A DNA stretch of 39,403 nt from Carboxylicivirga marina (lineage in GTDB: Bacteria > Bacteroidota > Bacteroidia > Bacteroidales > Marinilabiliaceae). The notes beneath the pieces were generated by a model, which did not search any database, had not been told where the DNA came from, and saw only the letters and a list, made by a program, of their open reading frames with translations. The stretch lies in the NCBI RefSeq assembly GCF_016612505.1, contig NZ_JAENRR010000047.1, forward strand, positions 1 through 39,403. The letters are read 5' to 3'. The position numbers and the translations under genes were made by a program. Below, piece by piece: positions 3,463 through 27,811 of the stretch (positions are counted from its first letter, which is position 1; each line of letters starts with the position of its first letter).

Positions 3463-3499
3463 AACAGGCAGTCAGTAAACGATTGCCTGTTTTTTTTTT
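3463..3499 (+). terminator. Intrinsic terminator after tldD-tldE
   Basis: AACAGGCA (3463-3470) pairs with TGCCTGTT (3484-3491) and is followed by a run of ten T. It closes the tldD-tldE operon. Confidence 0.85.
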
Positions 3500-3536
3500 G
3501 CGCCATAGTTTATTTTCAGATATAAAGGTGTTTTTA

Positions 3537-3544
3537 TATTTTTG
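3537..3544 (+). promoter_or_regulatory. -7 promoter element of trhO
   Basis: TATTTTTG matches TAnnTTTG exactly and lies 16 nt before the chosen ATG. It falls inside a longer open frame starting at 3483, which argues that the translation start is downstream at 3561. Confidence 0.6.
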
Positions 3545-3560
3545 TGCAAAATTTGAAATT

Positions 3561-4595
3561 ATGGATCCCAATAGTGGCAAAAAGCACCTGATAAATAGAT
3601 TAAGTCCGGAACAACTTCGTGAACGATTAGCAAATGAATCTTTTAAGCGAACAACTGTTTCGTTTTATCGATATGTGATAATTGACAATCCTTATGAGAT
3701 GCGCGACATGCTGTTTTACATGTGGAATAAATGGCAGTGTTACGGTCGTATTTATCTGGCTAAAGAAGGAATAAATGCACAAATGAGTGTGCCCGATCAT
3801 TATTGGCAGGATTTTCAAGAACACTTACACTCATTGCCCCAGTTTAAAAATGTACCGTTTAAAATTGCTGTTGAAGATAATGGACAATCGTTTTTAAAGT
3901 TACAAATTAAGGTTCGCCAGCAAATTGTAGCAGATGGCCTGACACCCGAAGAATATGATGTAACTAACGTTGGTAAACACCTGACAGCAAGAGAGTGGAA
4001 TAATGCGATGGATGATGGCGCCATAGTAATAGATATGCGTAACCATTACGAAAGCGAGATCGGACGATTTGACAATGCCATATTACCCGATGCCGAAACC
4101 TTTAAAGAAGAATTGCCTGAGGTGGTTGATAAGTTAAAAGGTAAAGAAGAGCAAAAAATTCTATTGTACTGTACCGGCGGTGTACGCTGTGAAAAAACGA
4201 GTGCCTACCTCAAACATCATGGTTTTTCTGATGTGAATCAACTCTTAGGTGGAATTATTGACTATTCACGTCAGGTCGAAACTGAAAAGATTGAAAATAA
4301 ATTTATAGGAAAGAACTTTGTATTTGACAATCGTTTAGGCGAGCGTATTAGTAACGATATTATCAGCCATTGTCACCAATGCGGTTCGCCTTGTGATGTT
4401 CATACTAATTGTGCCAATAAAAAATGCAACCTCTTGTTTATTCAGTGCGACAAGTGCAAAGCGCAATATGATAGGTGTTGTAGTGATGATTGCCAAAGCT
4501 TTATACTGGCTCCTCCTGCCGAAAGAAAAGAATTGGAGCAACGCCTGATCTTTAAAAGGGGAAAACGTTTTCATAAACCAGAACAATCGGCATAA
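3561..4595 (+). CDS. trhO: tRNA uridine(34) hydroxylase TrhO, rhodanese family
   Basis: The 344-residue product is a YceA/TrhO-type enzyme, which makes 5-hydroxyuridine at the wobble position of tRNA in an oxygen-dependent reaction. It has an N-terminal acylphosphatase-like domain, a central rhodanese domain with the active-site loop YCTGGVRCEKT, and a C-terminal Cys-rich region (CHQCGSPCDVHTNC, then CDKCKAQYDRCC) that probably binds metal. The length agrees with E. coli YceA (about 350). The ATG at 3561 is preferred over the in-frame one at 3483 because the latter lies upstream of the -7 promoter element and would add an atypical extension. It is monocistronic between a terminator and the exonuclease gene. 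Confidence 0.9.
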   Translation: MDPNSGKKHLINRLSPEQLRERLANESFKRTTVSFYRYVIIDNPYEMRDMLFYMWNKWQCYGRIYLAKEGINAQMSVPDHYWQDFQEHLHSLPQFKNVPFKIAVEDNGQSFLKLQIKVRQQIVADGLTPEEYDVTNVGKHLTAREWNNAMDDGAIVIDMRNHYESEIGRFDNAILPDAETFKEELPEVVDKLKGKEEQKILLYCTGGVRCEKTSAYLKHHGFSDVNQLLGGIIDYSRQVETEKIENKFIGKNFVFDNRLGERISNDIISHCHQCGSPCDVHTNCANKKCNLLFIQCDKCKAQYDRCCSDDCQSFILAPPAERKELEQRLIFKRGKRFHKPEQSA

Positions 4596-22745: not shown

Positions 22746-25700
22746 CTATTTCGTTAACTCACCACCCGAAGCATCTCCTTTCTGAAAGATGGTTGGGGTA
22801 ACACCAAACAAGCTTTTAAAGCTCTTCGAGAAGTACTTAGGATCGTTAAAACCAACCTGATAAGTAACCTCCGACACATTTAGCTCACCTTGCTTGAGTA
22901 ACTTAGCAGCTTGCTTTAGGCGAATGGTGCGTATAAACTCACTGGTACTTTGCCCTGTTAATTCGCGCAGTTTCATATGCAGAAGCGTGCGGCTTACATT
23001 CATTTTCTTCACCAGTTCTGATACATTAAACGCTGCATCCGACATGTTTTCTTCCACTGTTTGAATAGCTCTGTTAACAAACTGCTGATCGGTTGATGTG
23101 GTAGCTATCTCTTCCACAAAATCCCATTGCTCTTTAAAGCGTGATTTTAAAAGCTGACGGTTTGATAATAAATTCTGAATTTGGGTTACCAGCAATTGCT
23201 TATCAAATGGCTTCACCACATAAGCATCGGCACCTGATTCTAATCCCTCGCGCTTAGAATCAACATTATCTAAAGCCGTTAGCATAATAATAGGGATATG
23301 GCTGGTAATAACGTTAGTTCGCAACTTATCACAAAAAGTAAATCCATCCATTTCGGGCATCATCACATCCGATATAATAATATCCGGCAACGAAGAAGAA
23401 GCTTTCTCAAGCCCTTCAACACCATTGGCTGCTTCATCGACTCGGTAATGCACCTGTAGTATTTGTGATAAATGGTTACGTAAATCCATTTGATCTTCTA
23501 CAATCAATACTTTAGGTTTATCACCCGACTCGGTTAATATCTCTTGCGAAATCTGTGTATCTACATCGTTAGACGATACGTTTTGTTCGGTCGATTGCTC
23601 CTCTATTATTTCATCAGCATTAAAATGCTTTTTATTGCCGCTAAAATCAACATGAAAGATGGCACCGTTTGGCGCATTATCTTCAATTCTGATTTGCCCT
23701 TTGTGCATCTCAACCAACTCTTTGACTAATGACAAGCCAACGCCTGTGCCTGCTCCACCAATCGATTGGTTATGCTCAGACTGGAAAAAACGTTCAAATA
23801 TTTTCTCTTTATCTTCATCGGGAACTCCCGAACCAGTATCGCTGACTTGCAGCTGTAACTGCTTATCTTTTTTAACAATCAATTCAATTTTAATGTGACC
23901 ATCGGCAGGTGTGTACTTAAAGGCATTGCTTAATAAATTGAAAATAATGGTTTCCAATTTCTCTGAGTCAAACCAAACCAACAGAGGTTTAGAATCGATG
24001 TGGCAGTCAAAGTGAATCTGTTTTTGGTCGGCAATACCCTGAAACGATTCTGCAATTCGCTTTATAAAGCTATTGATATTGCGCTCGCGTATGCTCAAGT
24101 GCATATTCCCTTGCGTTACTTTTCTAAAGTCCATTAGCTGATTAATCAACCGAAGCAAGCGGTCAGTATTATTTTTCATCAGTTCCAGTTGACTTTTTGA
24201 GGCGGTTGATAAAGTACTATCATAGTCGAGCATTTCCTGCAATGGCCCGGCAATAAGGGTTAATGGCGTTCTGAACTCATGCGATATATTCGTAAAAAAG
24301 CGGATTTTCATTTGATGTAACAAAGCTTCTTTATCGCGAGCCACTTTTTCTCTGTTTAGGTGTTCACGCTCTTTCACACGGGTCACTATTATCTTTTGCG
24401 CTGATATAAACCCACCTAGCAATAATATAAAATAGCCAACATAAGCATACCAGGTTTTGTAAAACGGTGGTTTAATAACAATTTTAAGAGTTGCCTCATG
24501 CTCGCTCCATTCGCCATCACTATTTGTTGCCTTTAACCTGAAAATGTATGTGTTAGGTGATAAATTTGAGTATATAACCGAGCGATGGCTGGCATTGGTA
24601 TTATTCCATTCACTTTCAAGTCCTTCAAGCTTATACATGTAATTATTTTTCTCCTGCTCGACATACGAGAGAGAAGCAAACTCAATTTGAATGACATTTT
24701 CATTATGCCTTAATTTAATTTCATCAGTAAGCGATATCGCTTTATCGATAACGATGCGATTATTAATTTCCACATTGGGTTTCAGCTCTTTCCCAGACAA
24801 ACTAATTCGGCGTAATACCGGCTTGGCATCATAAGGATTACGATGCACACTATCAGGGTAGAAAGCAACAATCCCTTCATGTGTTGGCATTGCTAACAAG
24901 CCATTATCCATTTTAACCATATTGCCAGGTGAAAAGTAATTGGCCGAGAAGCCACCTGACATAAAATATGGTGTTATTACTCCTGTTTCTGTATTAAAGC
25001 TGGCCAGTCCCTGCAGCGTACCCAACCACATATTCTTTTCATCTGCCTTATATATTTGGCTTACTGCCGACGATGGTAAACCATCTTTCTCTTTATAAAC
25101 GGTATTAGTACCCTTTTGGGGGTTTATTAAATGTAAACCTTTGGCTGTTCCAACCCAAAGCTGTCCGTTTGGTGCTCCCTTAATGGTTAGCACCTGACGA
25201 TCGGCCAATGAAATTGGATTTGAATCTTCATAATAATGATATAAGAGTTGACCACCTTTAATATCGCCATCAATCGAAAAACAATACAGACCTTCAAATT
25301 CAGTACCTAACCATATTTTATCATTATCGAGGTAATAACAAGTAAAAATCTCATCAACAGGAAATAGCGACGAACCATCTGACTTTGTTGATACAAAGCG
25401 TTGGCTTTTGTTATTAAGGATATTGATACCATTATTAGTAATTACCCACAAGTGCTTATTTCGCTTAAATATGTGCTTTATTTCGTTACCACTAATTTTA
25501 TGCTTTGATGGTTTGTACATTGTATATTGTTTAAAACCAACCAAGCTTCCGTTTTTATGTGTGAAGTGAAGCAATCCGTTATCGCGTGTACCGACCCATA
25601 GTTGGTCATCGCCTTCTTTATAAACGGTTGTTACATCTTGTTTGTAAAGATTAGGTGTTCGGGTTGAATCTGCTTGAATGGCCTTAAACAAGCCTGTTCC

Positions 25701-26930
25701 ATCAATGACCTTAGTCAGTTCGAACAGTCCACTTTGGCTGCTTACCAAGAGTCCGCCATCACCATTATTAGCAACTCGATTGATTCGATTGGCATCTGTA
25801 TAGTTGGGCAGAGTAATTTTTAAATGCATAAAATTATCCCGCTCTTTGAATACCTTTATGACACCTCCTCCGAGTGTTCCGGCCCAAAGATTCCCTTGTT
25901 TATCGGGATAAATTACTTTCACCTTATTCTTAAACAGACTTTTTAGGGTATTCTCACTTTCCTTGAAGCGAATAAATTTATACGTTGAAGGGTTGGGAGT
26001 CCTAACCAATTGATTTAATCCCCCATCATAGGTACCTGCCCATAAATTATTATCATCATCTTCGCAGAGTGCATAAACATTGTCATGACTAATGGTGCTC
26101 GAGTCATTAGCAACATGCACATAGGTTATAAAAGAATCACTTTCTCTGTTGTATAAATTTAGCCCATGCGCCCAGGTACCAAACCATAATTGGCCTTGGT
26201 AATCTTCATAAATAGCCATAATGGCACGGCTACTTATAGCACCTGGTTTTTCATCAGCATCGTAGTTTACAAAGCTGTGCTTTCCCTTGTCAAGACGACT
26301 TAAGCCACCTTCGGTTGTACCAGCCCACAAACTCCCGTTTTTATCTTCTAAAACAGAATATACATGCGGATATATTAGACTTTGCTTGTCGGCTGGATCG
26401 TGCTGATAATGGGTAATGTTGAGTATTGGTGATGCATTATCACCTCCTACCTTAATGTGATTGAGGCCGTTTTTTGTACCAACCCATAAGTGATCGTCGA
26501 TTGAATGCGCAAAGCAAAAGATCTCATCAGAGGTTAATTCAAACTGACTATCATTAATATCAATAAATAATTCTGACTTTAAATCAAAAATACTAATTCC
26601 TCCGCCATCTGTTCCAATCCACAATCTGCCGTAGTTATCTTCATATAAAGCTCGCACAATATTAGCAGAAAGAGAATGGGGTATATTCGCATCATGACGA
26701 AATACATCTATCGAATATCCATCGTAACGATGCAAACCTTCTTCTGATCCAAACCACATAAATCCGTATGTATCTTGCAGGATGCAATGTATGTTATTGT
26801 CGGCTAAACCATCCTTGGTTGTTATGTTTTGGGTCGAGTAATGTTGTTCTTGCGCAGATAGAACAGCAGTACTTATATAAAGAGCAATAATGATTAAATA
26901 AGCATGTGGTTTTCTCAACATTGAAATCAA
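22746..26930 (-). CDS. Hybrid two-component system sensor/regulator (HTCS)
   Basis: The 1394-residue one-protein signalling system has a signal peptide (to about residue 25) and a periplasmic double beta-propeller of Reg_prop repeats (about 30-690, recurring LWVGT and LWAGT). A Y_Y_Y domain (about 735-820) and one membrane helix (828-848) follow. The cytoplasmic part has a HisKA domain with ISHEFRTP (His884), a HATPase (NLLSNAFKYTP, GTGVGLSLV), a receiver domain (phospho-acceptor Asp1188 in IISDVMMPEMDG) and an AraC-type DNA-binding domain (1290-1385, VGFNDPKYFSKSFKSLFG). All catalytic residues are present. HTCS proteins usually control adjacent polysaccharide-utilisation loci, but no SusC/SusD or glycoside hydrolase is here. 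ATG at 26921 (MLRKP) is an alternative start. Confidence 0.95.
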   Translation of the reverse strand: MISMLRKPHAYLIIIALYISTAVLSAQEQHYSTQNITTKDGLADNNIHCILQDTYGFMWFGSEEGLHRYDGYSIDVFRHDANIPHSLSANIVRALYEDNYGRLWIGTDGGGISIFDLKSELFIDINDSQFELTSDEIFCFAHSIDDHLWVGTKNGLNHIKVGGDNASPILNITHYQHDPADKQSLIYPHVYSVLEDKNGSLWAGTTEGGLSRLDKGKHSFVNYDADEKPGAISSRAIMAIYEDYQGQLWFGTWAHGLNLYNRESDSFITYVHVANDSSTISHDNVYALCEDDDNNLWAGTYDGGLNQLVRTPNPSTYKFIRFKESENTLKSLFKNKVKVIYPDKQGNLWAGTLGGGVIKVFKERDNFMHLKITLPNYTDANRINRVANNGDGGLLVSSQSGLFELTKVIDGTGLFKAIQADSTRTPNLYKQDVTTVYKEGDDQLWVGTRDNGLLHFTHKNGSLVGFKQYTMYKPSKHKISGNEIKHIFKRNKHLWVITNNGINILNNKSQRFVSTKSDGSSLFPVDEIFTCYYLDNDKIWLGTEFEGLYCFSIDGDIKGGQLLYHYYEDSNPISLADRQVLTIKGAPNGQLWVGTAKGLHLINPQKGTNTVYKEKDGLPSSAVSQIYKADEKNMWLGTLQGLASFNTETGVITPYFMSGGFSANYFSPGNMVKMDNGLLAMPTHEGIVAFYPDSVHRNPYDAKPVLRRISLSGKELKPNVEINNRIVIDKAISLTDEIKLRHNENVIQIEFASLSYVEQEKNNYMYKLEGLESEWNNTNASHRSVIYSNLSPNTYIFRLKATNSDGEWSEHEATLKIVIKPPFYKTWYAYVGYFILLLGGFISAQKIIVTRVKEREHLNREKVARDKEALLHQMKIRFFTNISHEFRTPLTLIAGPLQEMLDYDSTLSTASKSQLELMKNNTDRLLRLINQLMDFRKVTQGNMHLSIRERNINSFIKRIAESFQGIADQKQIHFDCHIDSKPLLVWFDSEKLETIIFNLLSNAFKYTPADGHIKIELIVKKDKQLQLQVSDTGSGVPDEDKEKIFERFFQSEHNQSIGGAGTGVGLSLVKELVEMHKGQIRIEDNAPNGAIFHVDFSGNKKHFNADEIIEEQSTEQNVSSNDVDTQISQEILTESGDKPKVLIVEDQMDLRNHLSQILQVHYRVDEAANGVEGLEKASSSLPDIIISDVMMPEMDGFTFCDKLRTNVITSHIPIIMLTALDNVDSKREGLESGADAYVVKPFDKQLLVTQIQNLLSNRQLLKSRFKEQWDFVEEIATTSTDQQFVNRAIQTVEENMSDAAFNVSELVKKMNVSRTLLHMKLRELTGQSTSEFIRTIRLKQAAKLLKQGELNVSEVTYQVGFNDPKYFSKSFKSLFGVTPTIFQKGDASGGELTK

Positions 26931-27134
26931 CTTTTAAAGTAATAATTAAACGTTGCGAAATTGCTTTCACAAATGAGTCAAACAAAAATAGTACAATAAT
27001 CAACATGCGTGACTTGTTTTGATTCTTTAACAATATGAGACTATTTGCATCAATCCATCACAATACAATCATATTACAATCACAAACAACTTCAGTGTTA
27101 CAATTTGATATTTAACAAATCTTAACCGCTACAA

Positions 27135-27247
27135 TTTGTAAATATCCGAATATATTTCGCACATTTGCATCAAGGATTTTTCATAAAAATTGGATTTAGT
27201 TAGCTGATTTAAGGGTAAGGACAGATTTCACGATCTGTCCTTTTTTT
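27135..27247 (+). ncRNA. Candidate small RNA, array copy 1
   Basis: A promoter-like pair (TTTG 27135-27138, 21-nt spacer, CACATTTG 27160-27167) is followed by a predicted transcript from about 27173. It ends in a perfect terminator, GGACAGAT (27219-27226) pairing with ATCTGTCC (27233-27240), then seven T. There is no ATG, so it is probably non-coding, about 77 nt. It is the most diverged of four copies but keeps TTGGATTTAGTTA and AAGGGTAAGGACAG. Confidence 0.65.
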
Positions 27248-27301
27248 ATGCGATTTAACATGGTTTAACGATGATTGATATTTCTTCACTATAATAATCC
27301 G

Positions 27302-27400
27302 CACATTTGTACTGTAGATTTTTTTTCATAGATTTTGGATTTAGTTAACGAACTGATTAAGGGTAAGGACAGATTTTCACATCTGTCCTTTTTCTTTTTT
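27302..27400 (+). ncRNA. Candidate small RNA, array copy 2
   Basis: The -7-like CACATTTG (27302-27309) precedes a predicted transcript of about 86 nt starting near 27315. The terminator stem AAGGACAGAT/ATCTGTCCTT spans 27365-27390, then a T-rich run. The body shares the conserved segments TTGGATTTAGTTAACGAACT and GATTAAGGGTAAGGACAG with copies 3 and 4. Confidence 0.7.
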
Positions 27401-27466
27401 ATAGCCCTTGGTTTTAATTTTAACAAGGATTAACGATGATTGATACTTCTTCACTATAATAATCCG

Positions 27467-27565
27467 CACATTTGTACTGTAGATTTTTTTTCATAGATTT
27501 TGGATTTAGTTAACGAACTGATTAAGGGTAAGGACAGGTTTTCACATCTGTCCTTTTTCTTTTTT
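27467..27565 (+). ncRNA. Candidate small RNA, array copy 3
   Basis: Almost identical to copy 2. The -7-like CACATTTG is at 27467-27474 and the terminator stem at 27530-27555. One A-to-G change in the left arm (ACAGG instead of ACAGA) converts an A-U pair to a G-U pair, so the stem is kept in the plus-strand RNA. Confidence 0.7.
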
Positions 27566-27633
27566 ATAGCCCATTGGTTATAAGTTTTAACAAGGATTAA
27601 CGATGATTGATATTTCTTCACTATAATAATCCG

Positions 27634-27730
27634 CACCTTTGTACTGTAGATTTTTTTTCATAGATTTTGGATTTAGTTAACGAACTGATTAAGGGTAAGG
27701 ACAGGTTTCACATCTGTCCTTTTTCTTTTT
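27634..27730 (+). ncRNA. Candidate small RNA, array copy 4
   Basis: The -7-like element is CACCTTTG (27634-27641), one base different from copies 2 and 3. The terminator stem is at 27697-27721 with the same G-U substitution as copy 3 and a loop one base shorter. It ends about 80 bp before the cytidylate-kinase-like gene. Confidence 0.7.
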
Positions 27731-27811
27731 ATATACCTTTGGTTCTATATTTTTTACATTCCCCCGTAAACATTGTAACTTACAAACTGTTCTCTAATCT
27801 AAAATTCTACT

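Follow-up and report, generated by a model that had tools for sequence, protein, structure and literature searches.

Tandem FopS-like small RNA genes predicted to act at susC translation starts in Carboxylicivirga marina

The closest described system to the locus reported here is FopS (Rfam RF04319), a paralogous small RNA family of Bacteroides that blocks translation of susC. As presented in the text of its description (Ruttiger et al., 2025; PMC11697453), which is cited in PMC12119571, base-pairing and the block of translation were shown in vitro for B. thetaiotaomicron, the family is conserved within the Bacteroidaceae and has 12-15 copies per named genome, its genes have a canonical sigma-ABfr promoter, and the RNAs are induced by bile salts and are bound in their 5′ part by the protein RbpB. 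The strings 'tandem', 'Marinilabil' and 'palindrom' are absent from the main text of that paper. Its Discussion refers to Qrr, LhrC, OmrA/B and the Cia-dependent sRNAs, which resemble the RNAs described here in that several related sRNA genes occur in one genome; they belong to other phyla and have other targets, and we liken them by description (PMC11697453). GibS of B. thetaiotaomicron, as portrayed in the text of PMC7366714, also has a conserved unstructured 5′ seed that pairs with translation start regions but, unlike our RNAs, is ~145 nt long, carries a second seed, R2, and is expressed from a PM2 promoter; the terminator stems described below end 68-74 nt after the presumed start. In the open-licence literature we found no paper on a small RNA in Carboxylicivirga and, for sRNAs of Marinilabili-named taxa, only a paper unrelated by its title.

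The window (the whole stretch of 39,403 bases that was analysed) contains four head-to-tail sRNA units on the + strand at 27172-27727, one of A-type and three of B-type, which are likely to be four tandem genes for trans-acting FopS-like sRNAs of ~70-80 nt, antisense to SusC starts and lowering transporter synthesis. R1, a covariance model built from six copies in this genome (the four of the array, on contig C148, and two on C111) and having rough E-values, matches the units at 27172-27248, 27315-27396, 27480-27561 and 27647-27727 (+). A sequence-only reading of this DNA had described four tandem units, each with a promoter-like element, a body and a terminator, and this layout is borne out by R1 matches in all four and by four terminator-like sites compared with 0.3 (sd 0.8) in shuffles. 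The A-type RNA of copy 1 is predicted to run from its 5′ seed GAUUUUUCAUAAAA, where the start is inferred, to the end of the T-run (27175-27248, +; R1 94.7 bits), and the B-type RNAs, with the 5′ seed GAUUUUUUUUCAUAGA, are predicted at 27317-27396 (copy 2, 95.6 bits), 27482-27561 (copy 3, 94.6 bits) and 27649-27727 (copy 4, 88.7 bits), all on the + strand. Copy 1 is a shorter, diverged unit, and the spacing from its start to that of copy 2 is 142-148, varying with the part compared; the next two intervals are 165 and 167. Copies 2-4 are near-identical as had been stated, since over 161 nt the gapped identity to copy 2 is 97% for copy 3 and 95% for copy 4 (ungapped, 96% and 85%).

The intrinsic terminator hairpins lie at 27217-27242 (copy 1, fold z = -2.35), 27365-27390 (copy 2), 27530-27555 (copy 3) and 27697-27721 (copy 4), all on the + strand, the last three as placed by the terminator search. 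In copies 3 and 4 an A-to-G change gives a G-U pair in the terminator stem, and the loops of copies 1-4 measure 4, 6, 6 and 5 nt; both the absorbed stem change and the varying loop length had been read from the sequence before, as had the lack of an ATG in the bodies, which we find in all four copies between the presumed start and the T-run. The predicted fold z of the array RNAs is -1.7 to -2.5, with the terminator as the main contributor. The array is followed by a gene for a cytidylate-kinase-like protein (PF13189; 27812-28513, +), which marks the locus and stands outside the RNA system. No tRNA or tmRNA was detected in the window. A hybrid two-component regulator at 22746-26930 is located between endonuclease III and the array, and in the related locus L024 endonuclease III (94% identical) ends just 5′ of the array; the regulator would thus represent a lineage-specific gain or loss.

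Each unit is preceded by a −7-like element that sits 8 nt 5′ of the presumed start, CACATTTG in copies 1 to 3 (27160-27167, 27302-27309 and 27467-27474, +) and CACCTTTG in copy 4 (27634-27641, +), the letters having been checked and the relatives compared. We take this element to be of the Bacteroidota TAnnTTTG promoter type and suppose that the units are transcribed from it; the array has CA where the consensus has TA, forms nearer to TAnnTTTG are found in relatives, and a −33 TTTG is recognisable by eye in copy 1 only. Plain sigma-70 promoters number seven in the window, compared with 5.0 expected, which is uninformative. Further upstream, a direct repeat of the form TTAAC-N5-TTAAC is present at 27112-27126, 27255-27269, 27420-27434 and 27587-27601 (+; letters checked) for copies 1 to 4, respectively. 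This repeat is perfect in 18/18 array units here and in relatives, two of which come from a duplicate locus, and it was found in none of 11 dispersed units and none of 1450 shuffled controls. Its half-sites lie one helical turn apart, and it is a possible activator site of the array form.

The covariance-model search of relatives that the earlier reading had suggested shows a conserved family: R1 matches all 14 genomes of the genus and, at E ≤ 0.001, 60 of the 71 genomes of the GTDB family, in 20 of its 21 genera. In an order-wide sample it matches 4/198 genomes, three of them in the same GTDB family and one outside. Clear copies in the C. marina genome number ten, namely the four of the array, two on C111, two on C204, one on C203 and one on C135, so that the 5′ end recurs at least six times outside the array; those on C204, C203 and C135 share the 5′ end and have other terminators, and the two on C204 are upstream of two tRNA-Met genes. 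C135:31824 is a doubtful further copy, and C131:34604 (R1 30.2 bits) was not counted since it is without the TTTTTCAT seed. The eight nearest relatives of the kinase (79-85% protein identity), from six Carboxylicivirga, one Saccharicrinis MAG and one other Bacteroidales MAG, all have R1 copies just upstream on the same strand; because the kinase was the query with which these loci were fetched, the array's presence is the only informative feature. This placement directly 5′ of the kinase gene is what duplicated cis-acting attenuators or leaders of that gene would show, rather than free sRNAs. Such a reading is very improbable, given that the RNA also occurs on C111, C135, C203 and C204, that a promoter-like element and a terminator accompany every unit, and that the kinase start lies ~90 nt beyond the last terminator, across poorly conserved sequence.

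The make-up of the array varies among the relatives. L024 has four B copies, L025 one A and two B, and L023 and L030 one A and one B each, the A-type body of copy 1 being common to L023, L025 and L030. In these four relatives, where both flanks are present, copy number is thus between 2 and 4; the other four contigs (L026-L029) break off within the array or at its edge and show a single B copy. In L023 a 41-bp repeat in 5.3 tandem copies occupies 3495-3715, between the A and B copies. Changing copy number and contigs that end at the array would suit a repetitive or mobile element that has no regulatory function and uses its terminators only for insulation, but only the transcript body is conserved while the flanks drift. 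For the B-type copy nearest the kinase, compared on different numbers of loci, mean identity is 98% in the body (n = 9 sequences, minimum 95%), 73% in the 70 nt upstream (n = 6) and 52% in the 80 nt downstream (n = 7); for the A-type the values are 100%, 71% and 63% (n = 4 sequences). The copies were located by near-exact body patterns, which matched 9/9 B and 4/4 A loci. Terminator covariation across relatives also speaks against such an element: eight of nine pairs are changed on both sides (53 distinct rows of 62 matches), 477/477 cells are paired, and 0/500 shuffles reach the observed covariation. Since the alignment was fitted to the model and the shuffles ignore relatedness, this is support and not proof; covariation is absent among the six copies of the C. 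marina genome and visible only across relatives. As the copies on C135 and C204, moreover, keep the 5′ body though their terminators differ, and as the RNAs have the SusC target complementarity described below, a mobile element is scarcely credible. Selection on the RNA, which the sequence-only reading had proposed, is supported by the conserved bodies, the terminator covariation and the conserved family, and on sequence grounds we regard the array RNAs as real, conserved and functional-looking.

The same reading knew of no described family of this kind in Bacteroidota and asked for a check against Rfam. At the gathering score, Rfam 15 families give no match in the window; when matches below the cut-off are admitted, 11 rows appear, and the three with the highest bit scores are FopS. 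This model is the best match for copies 2-4 and spans all four copies end to end with 19.4-23.7 bits, compared with a gathering score of 56. Single FopS matches in the window are non-significant (E 0.39-2.6); for copy 1 a minus-strand RefA9 match outscores FopS (22.2 vs 19.4 bits), and immediately 5′ of copies 2-4 SNORD37 is matched with E of 0.23-0.6, mostly lower than the FopS E. We judged RefA9, SNORD37, BTnc231, snoR53, MicX, sraA and the other low-scoring names to be chance or generic terminator matches. A genome-wide search with the FopS model yields 14 candidate places at E ≤ 10, the best scoring 32.6 bits; on reading, the array and C135:31949 were kept, C135:31824 was again doubtful and 11 were dropped. 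Among the latter, those on C55 and C195 contain ATGAAAAA in sense, those on C173 and C146 are antisense to an ATGAAAAA, C135:8694 and C131:7001 are ambiguous, and those on C129, C140, C7, C157 and C152 have no seed-plus-terminator layout by eye.

Over the whole GTDB family the FopS model has 119 matches in 53/71 genomes at E ≤ 0.1, where ~7 would be expected if the E-values were exact. Scores do not exceed 41.8 bits apart from one match of 76.8 bits, in the single genome of the 71 that passes the cut-off. The two models agree in both directions. With at least 89 R1 matches outside the genus and 14 weak ones within it as input, at least 46 of the 108 FopS matches outside the genus, in at least 30 genomes, coincide with listed R1 matches (the other 62 are without a coinciding match among those listed), as do 5/11 within the genus with weak R1 matches. 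In reverse, when 30 loci that exceed the FopS cut-off are searched with R1, 18 matches reach E ≤ 10: 12, in as many loci, fall at the FopS site (E 0.011-0.75), three on further listed copies of FopS and the remaining three outside these. By eye, the R1 family and FopS have the text TTTTTCATRG..GATTT..GGTTAA in common, with intermediates in L094, L101, L102 and L108; the Rfam FopS consensus, standing in for R1′, was aligned to relatives at C135 and L070.

From this excess of matches, two-way concordance and aligned text with intermediates, together with the architecture and the predicted targets, we conclude that the array family is FopS-like and probably homologous to FopS. The likeness could instead have arisen by convergence of an unrelated trans-acting sRNA family on the same target site, the antisense of AUGAAAAA. 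The 5′ text common with FopS is indeed partly dictated by the target, the Rfam cut-off is not reached, and the linker TTAAGGGTAAGG was not found in FopS loci over that cut-off. However, the likeness extends beyond the start-codon antisense, with GATTT-GGTTAA following in L072, L094, L101-L105 and L108, the architecture is the same and the models are concordant both ways, so that convergence is unlikely. As in FopS, the RNAs are ~65-80 nt with a single-stranded U-rich 5′ end carrying UUUUUCAU and an intrinsic terminator directly after, are multicopy, have a TAnnTTTG-like element and are predicted to be antisense to SusC start regions. Unlike FopS, the array RNAs contain the extra linker, a longer body and two seed classes in tandem, and score below the Rfam cut-off; this curated threshold was tested and not reached, and for that reason we do not file them in RF04319. 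The earlier claim of novelty falls because, by this evidence, the array is distantly related to FopS, which was described in 2025. As far as the literature searched extends, what is new is that the range is wider, that a tandem array carrying two seed classes is conserved, and that the RNAs are present in genomes where no RRM_1 protein was detected.

In minimum-energy structures of the array RNAs the first 12-15 nt are unpaired. The segment that had been put forward as the natural seed, as the most conserved unpaired stretch, proved mostly the wrong choice: in copies 2-4 part of it is taken into a predicted hairpin, UUAGUU-AACG-AACUGA, and the proposal left out the U-rich 5′ end, which is the unpaired part that matches the targets. 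The C. marina genome has 36 SusC genes over the model cut-off, and 35 were used as targets, the 36th (C111:186377) having stayed in a background stretch. For the 5′-terminal 30 nt of the B-type RNA, the predicted duplexes with the 35 SusC start regions have a median energy of -15.1 kcal/mol, compared with -9.0 kcal/mol at 509 other genes (p = 7.8e-12), -9.7 at 201 signal-peptide-like genes (p = 5.5e-9) and -11.4 at 68 MKK-like starts (p = 3.5e-5); these p-values are too good because SusC genes are related to each other, the energies ignore mRNA folding, and starts were set at the first ATG, some probably wrongly. None of 200 dinucleotide-shuffled seeds had a SusC mean as low. Against all genes, the A-type, C111, C135 and C204 seeds give p of 6.3e-11 to 7.4e-8, and against MKK-like starts 1.2e-3, 1.4e-4, 5.6e-4 and 0.06, respectively; MKK starts account for part of the SusC pairing signal. 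The 30 best-pairing starts comprise 17 of SusC and 13 others.

The signal is centred on the start codon. When the target window is shifted by -20 nt, or by ≥40 nt either way, the mean falls to background; with a shift of +20 nt, where the start codon is still inside, it stays low, and the AUG lies within the best duplex in 33/35 SusC. Target prediction, which had been suggested with the conserved segment, succeeded with another part of the RNA: the signal resides in nt 1-15 (p = 1.7e-10) and is weak in nt 13-33 (p = 0.019), and the linker gives no SusC-start signal. The seeds of the genome form two groups that rank SusC targets differently, the Spearman coefficient, calculated without a control, being 0.85 for A with C111 and for B with C135, and 0.36-0.51 when either A or C111 is compared with B, C135 or C204; the C203 seed fits either group poorly. 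Pairing with susC translation start regions, a criterion for FopS, is thus predicted in silico.

An RRM_1 match is present in 44/71 genomes of the GTDB family, and C. marina has one such protein (C138:22778). R1 and RRM_1 matches occur together in 43 genomes, R1 alone in 17, RRM_1 alone in one and neither in ten; incomplete assemblies may account for some of the 17. The array family differs from FopS in that some of the genomes carrying it gave no RRM_1 match. In genus g18, none of the nine genomes (G044-G052; 90-100% complete, all with FopS-like sRNAs) has an RRM_1 match. One of them, G046, was examined for complementarity, using 30 of 56 listed SusC matches (about two more are in background stretches): against 248 genes its three distinct seeds give p = 2.8e-8, 6.3e-7 and 1.6e-10, against 31 MKK-like starts 2.2e-3, 1.9e-2 and 3.6e-4, and none of 100 mononucleotide shuffles reaches the SusC mean. 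These data bear on whether a FopS-like RNA serves chiefly as a ligand or sponge of an RRM protein and not by pairing, as could be argued from the binding of RbpB to FopS described in PMC11697453 and from the RRM_1 protein in 43/60 R1-positive genomes. The 17/60 without an RRM_1 match, among them 9/9 of genus g18, and the persistence of SusC complementarity in G046 make this quite improbable. RbpB-like antagonism may apply in C. marina because one RRM_1 gene is present, and is unlikely to be required everywhere.

We therefore return to antisense action as the preferred reading. Each RNA would consist of the unstructured 5′ end, the linker and the intrinsic terminator, with the 5′ end antisense to the start region of SusC mRNAs (AUG followed by AAAAA, and bases before it). 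By analogy with FopS, pairing in vivo over the start codon would block ribosome binding and stop initiation of SusC translation. The 5′ ends match SusC start sites, so the transporters are probably turned down, and synthesis might be lowered when a glycan is unwanted. Tandem and dispersed copies would provide dosage, the two seed classes would weight different SusC mRNAs, and the sole RRM_1 protein of the genome may modulate the array RNAs as RbpB does in B. thetaiotaomicron. If the array is a working relative, the FopS mechanism arose earlier and extends to Bacteroidales such as Carboxylicivirga, and the locus offers a natural test of why many near-identical copies are kept, whether for dosage or division of targets, and of whether the RRM protein is needed at all. 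More tentatively, FopS-type regulation might be an ancient, order-wide code of Bacteroidales by which a few sRNAs dim much of the SusC repertoire (36 here), in this lineage split into two seed classes (AUAAAA and AUAGAU) that several species retain together within a single array and that divide the SusC set, and independent of RbpB in at least one genus.

The Rfam FopS model passes its cut-off in 34 of the 198 order-sampled genomes, under 20 family labels, so canonical FopS may itself be wider than its published range; as a probable homologue, the form described here adds a further family to that range. Whereas the arrays have TTAAC-N5-TTAAC upstream, many canonical FopS copies have a palindrome, ATGTT-N4-AACAT. 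In the loci over the Rfam cut-off (L083 and L112-L141) it lies 34-37 nt before the presumed start; it is perfect in 12/32 canonical upstream regions and within two mismatches in 18/32, 17 of these 18 being at -34 to -37, and perfect copies were found in none of 1600 mononucleotide-shuffled controls. This palindrome could be the operator of the FopS regulator that the text of PMC11697453 calls unknown. The one match of 76.8 bits in the GTDB family, L083 (G064:C41:116-182), is a canonical-looking FopS near a contig end and may reflect contamination or transfer. In genome G202, three canonical FopS copies lie ~250 bp apart at C1:3141137-3141708, indicating that tandem copies occur in canonical genomes too.
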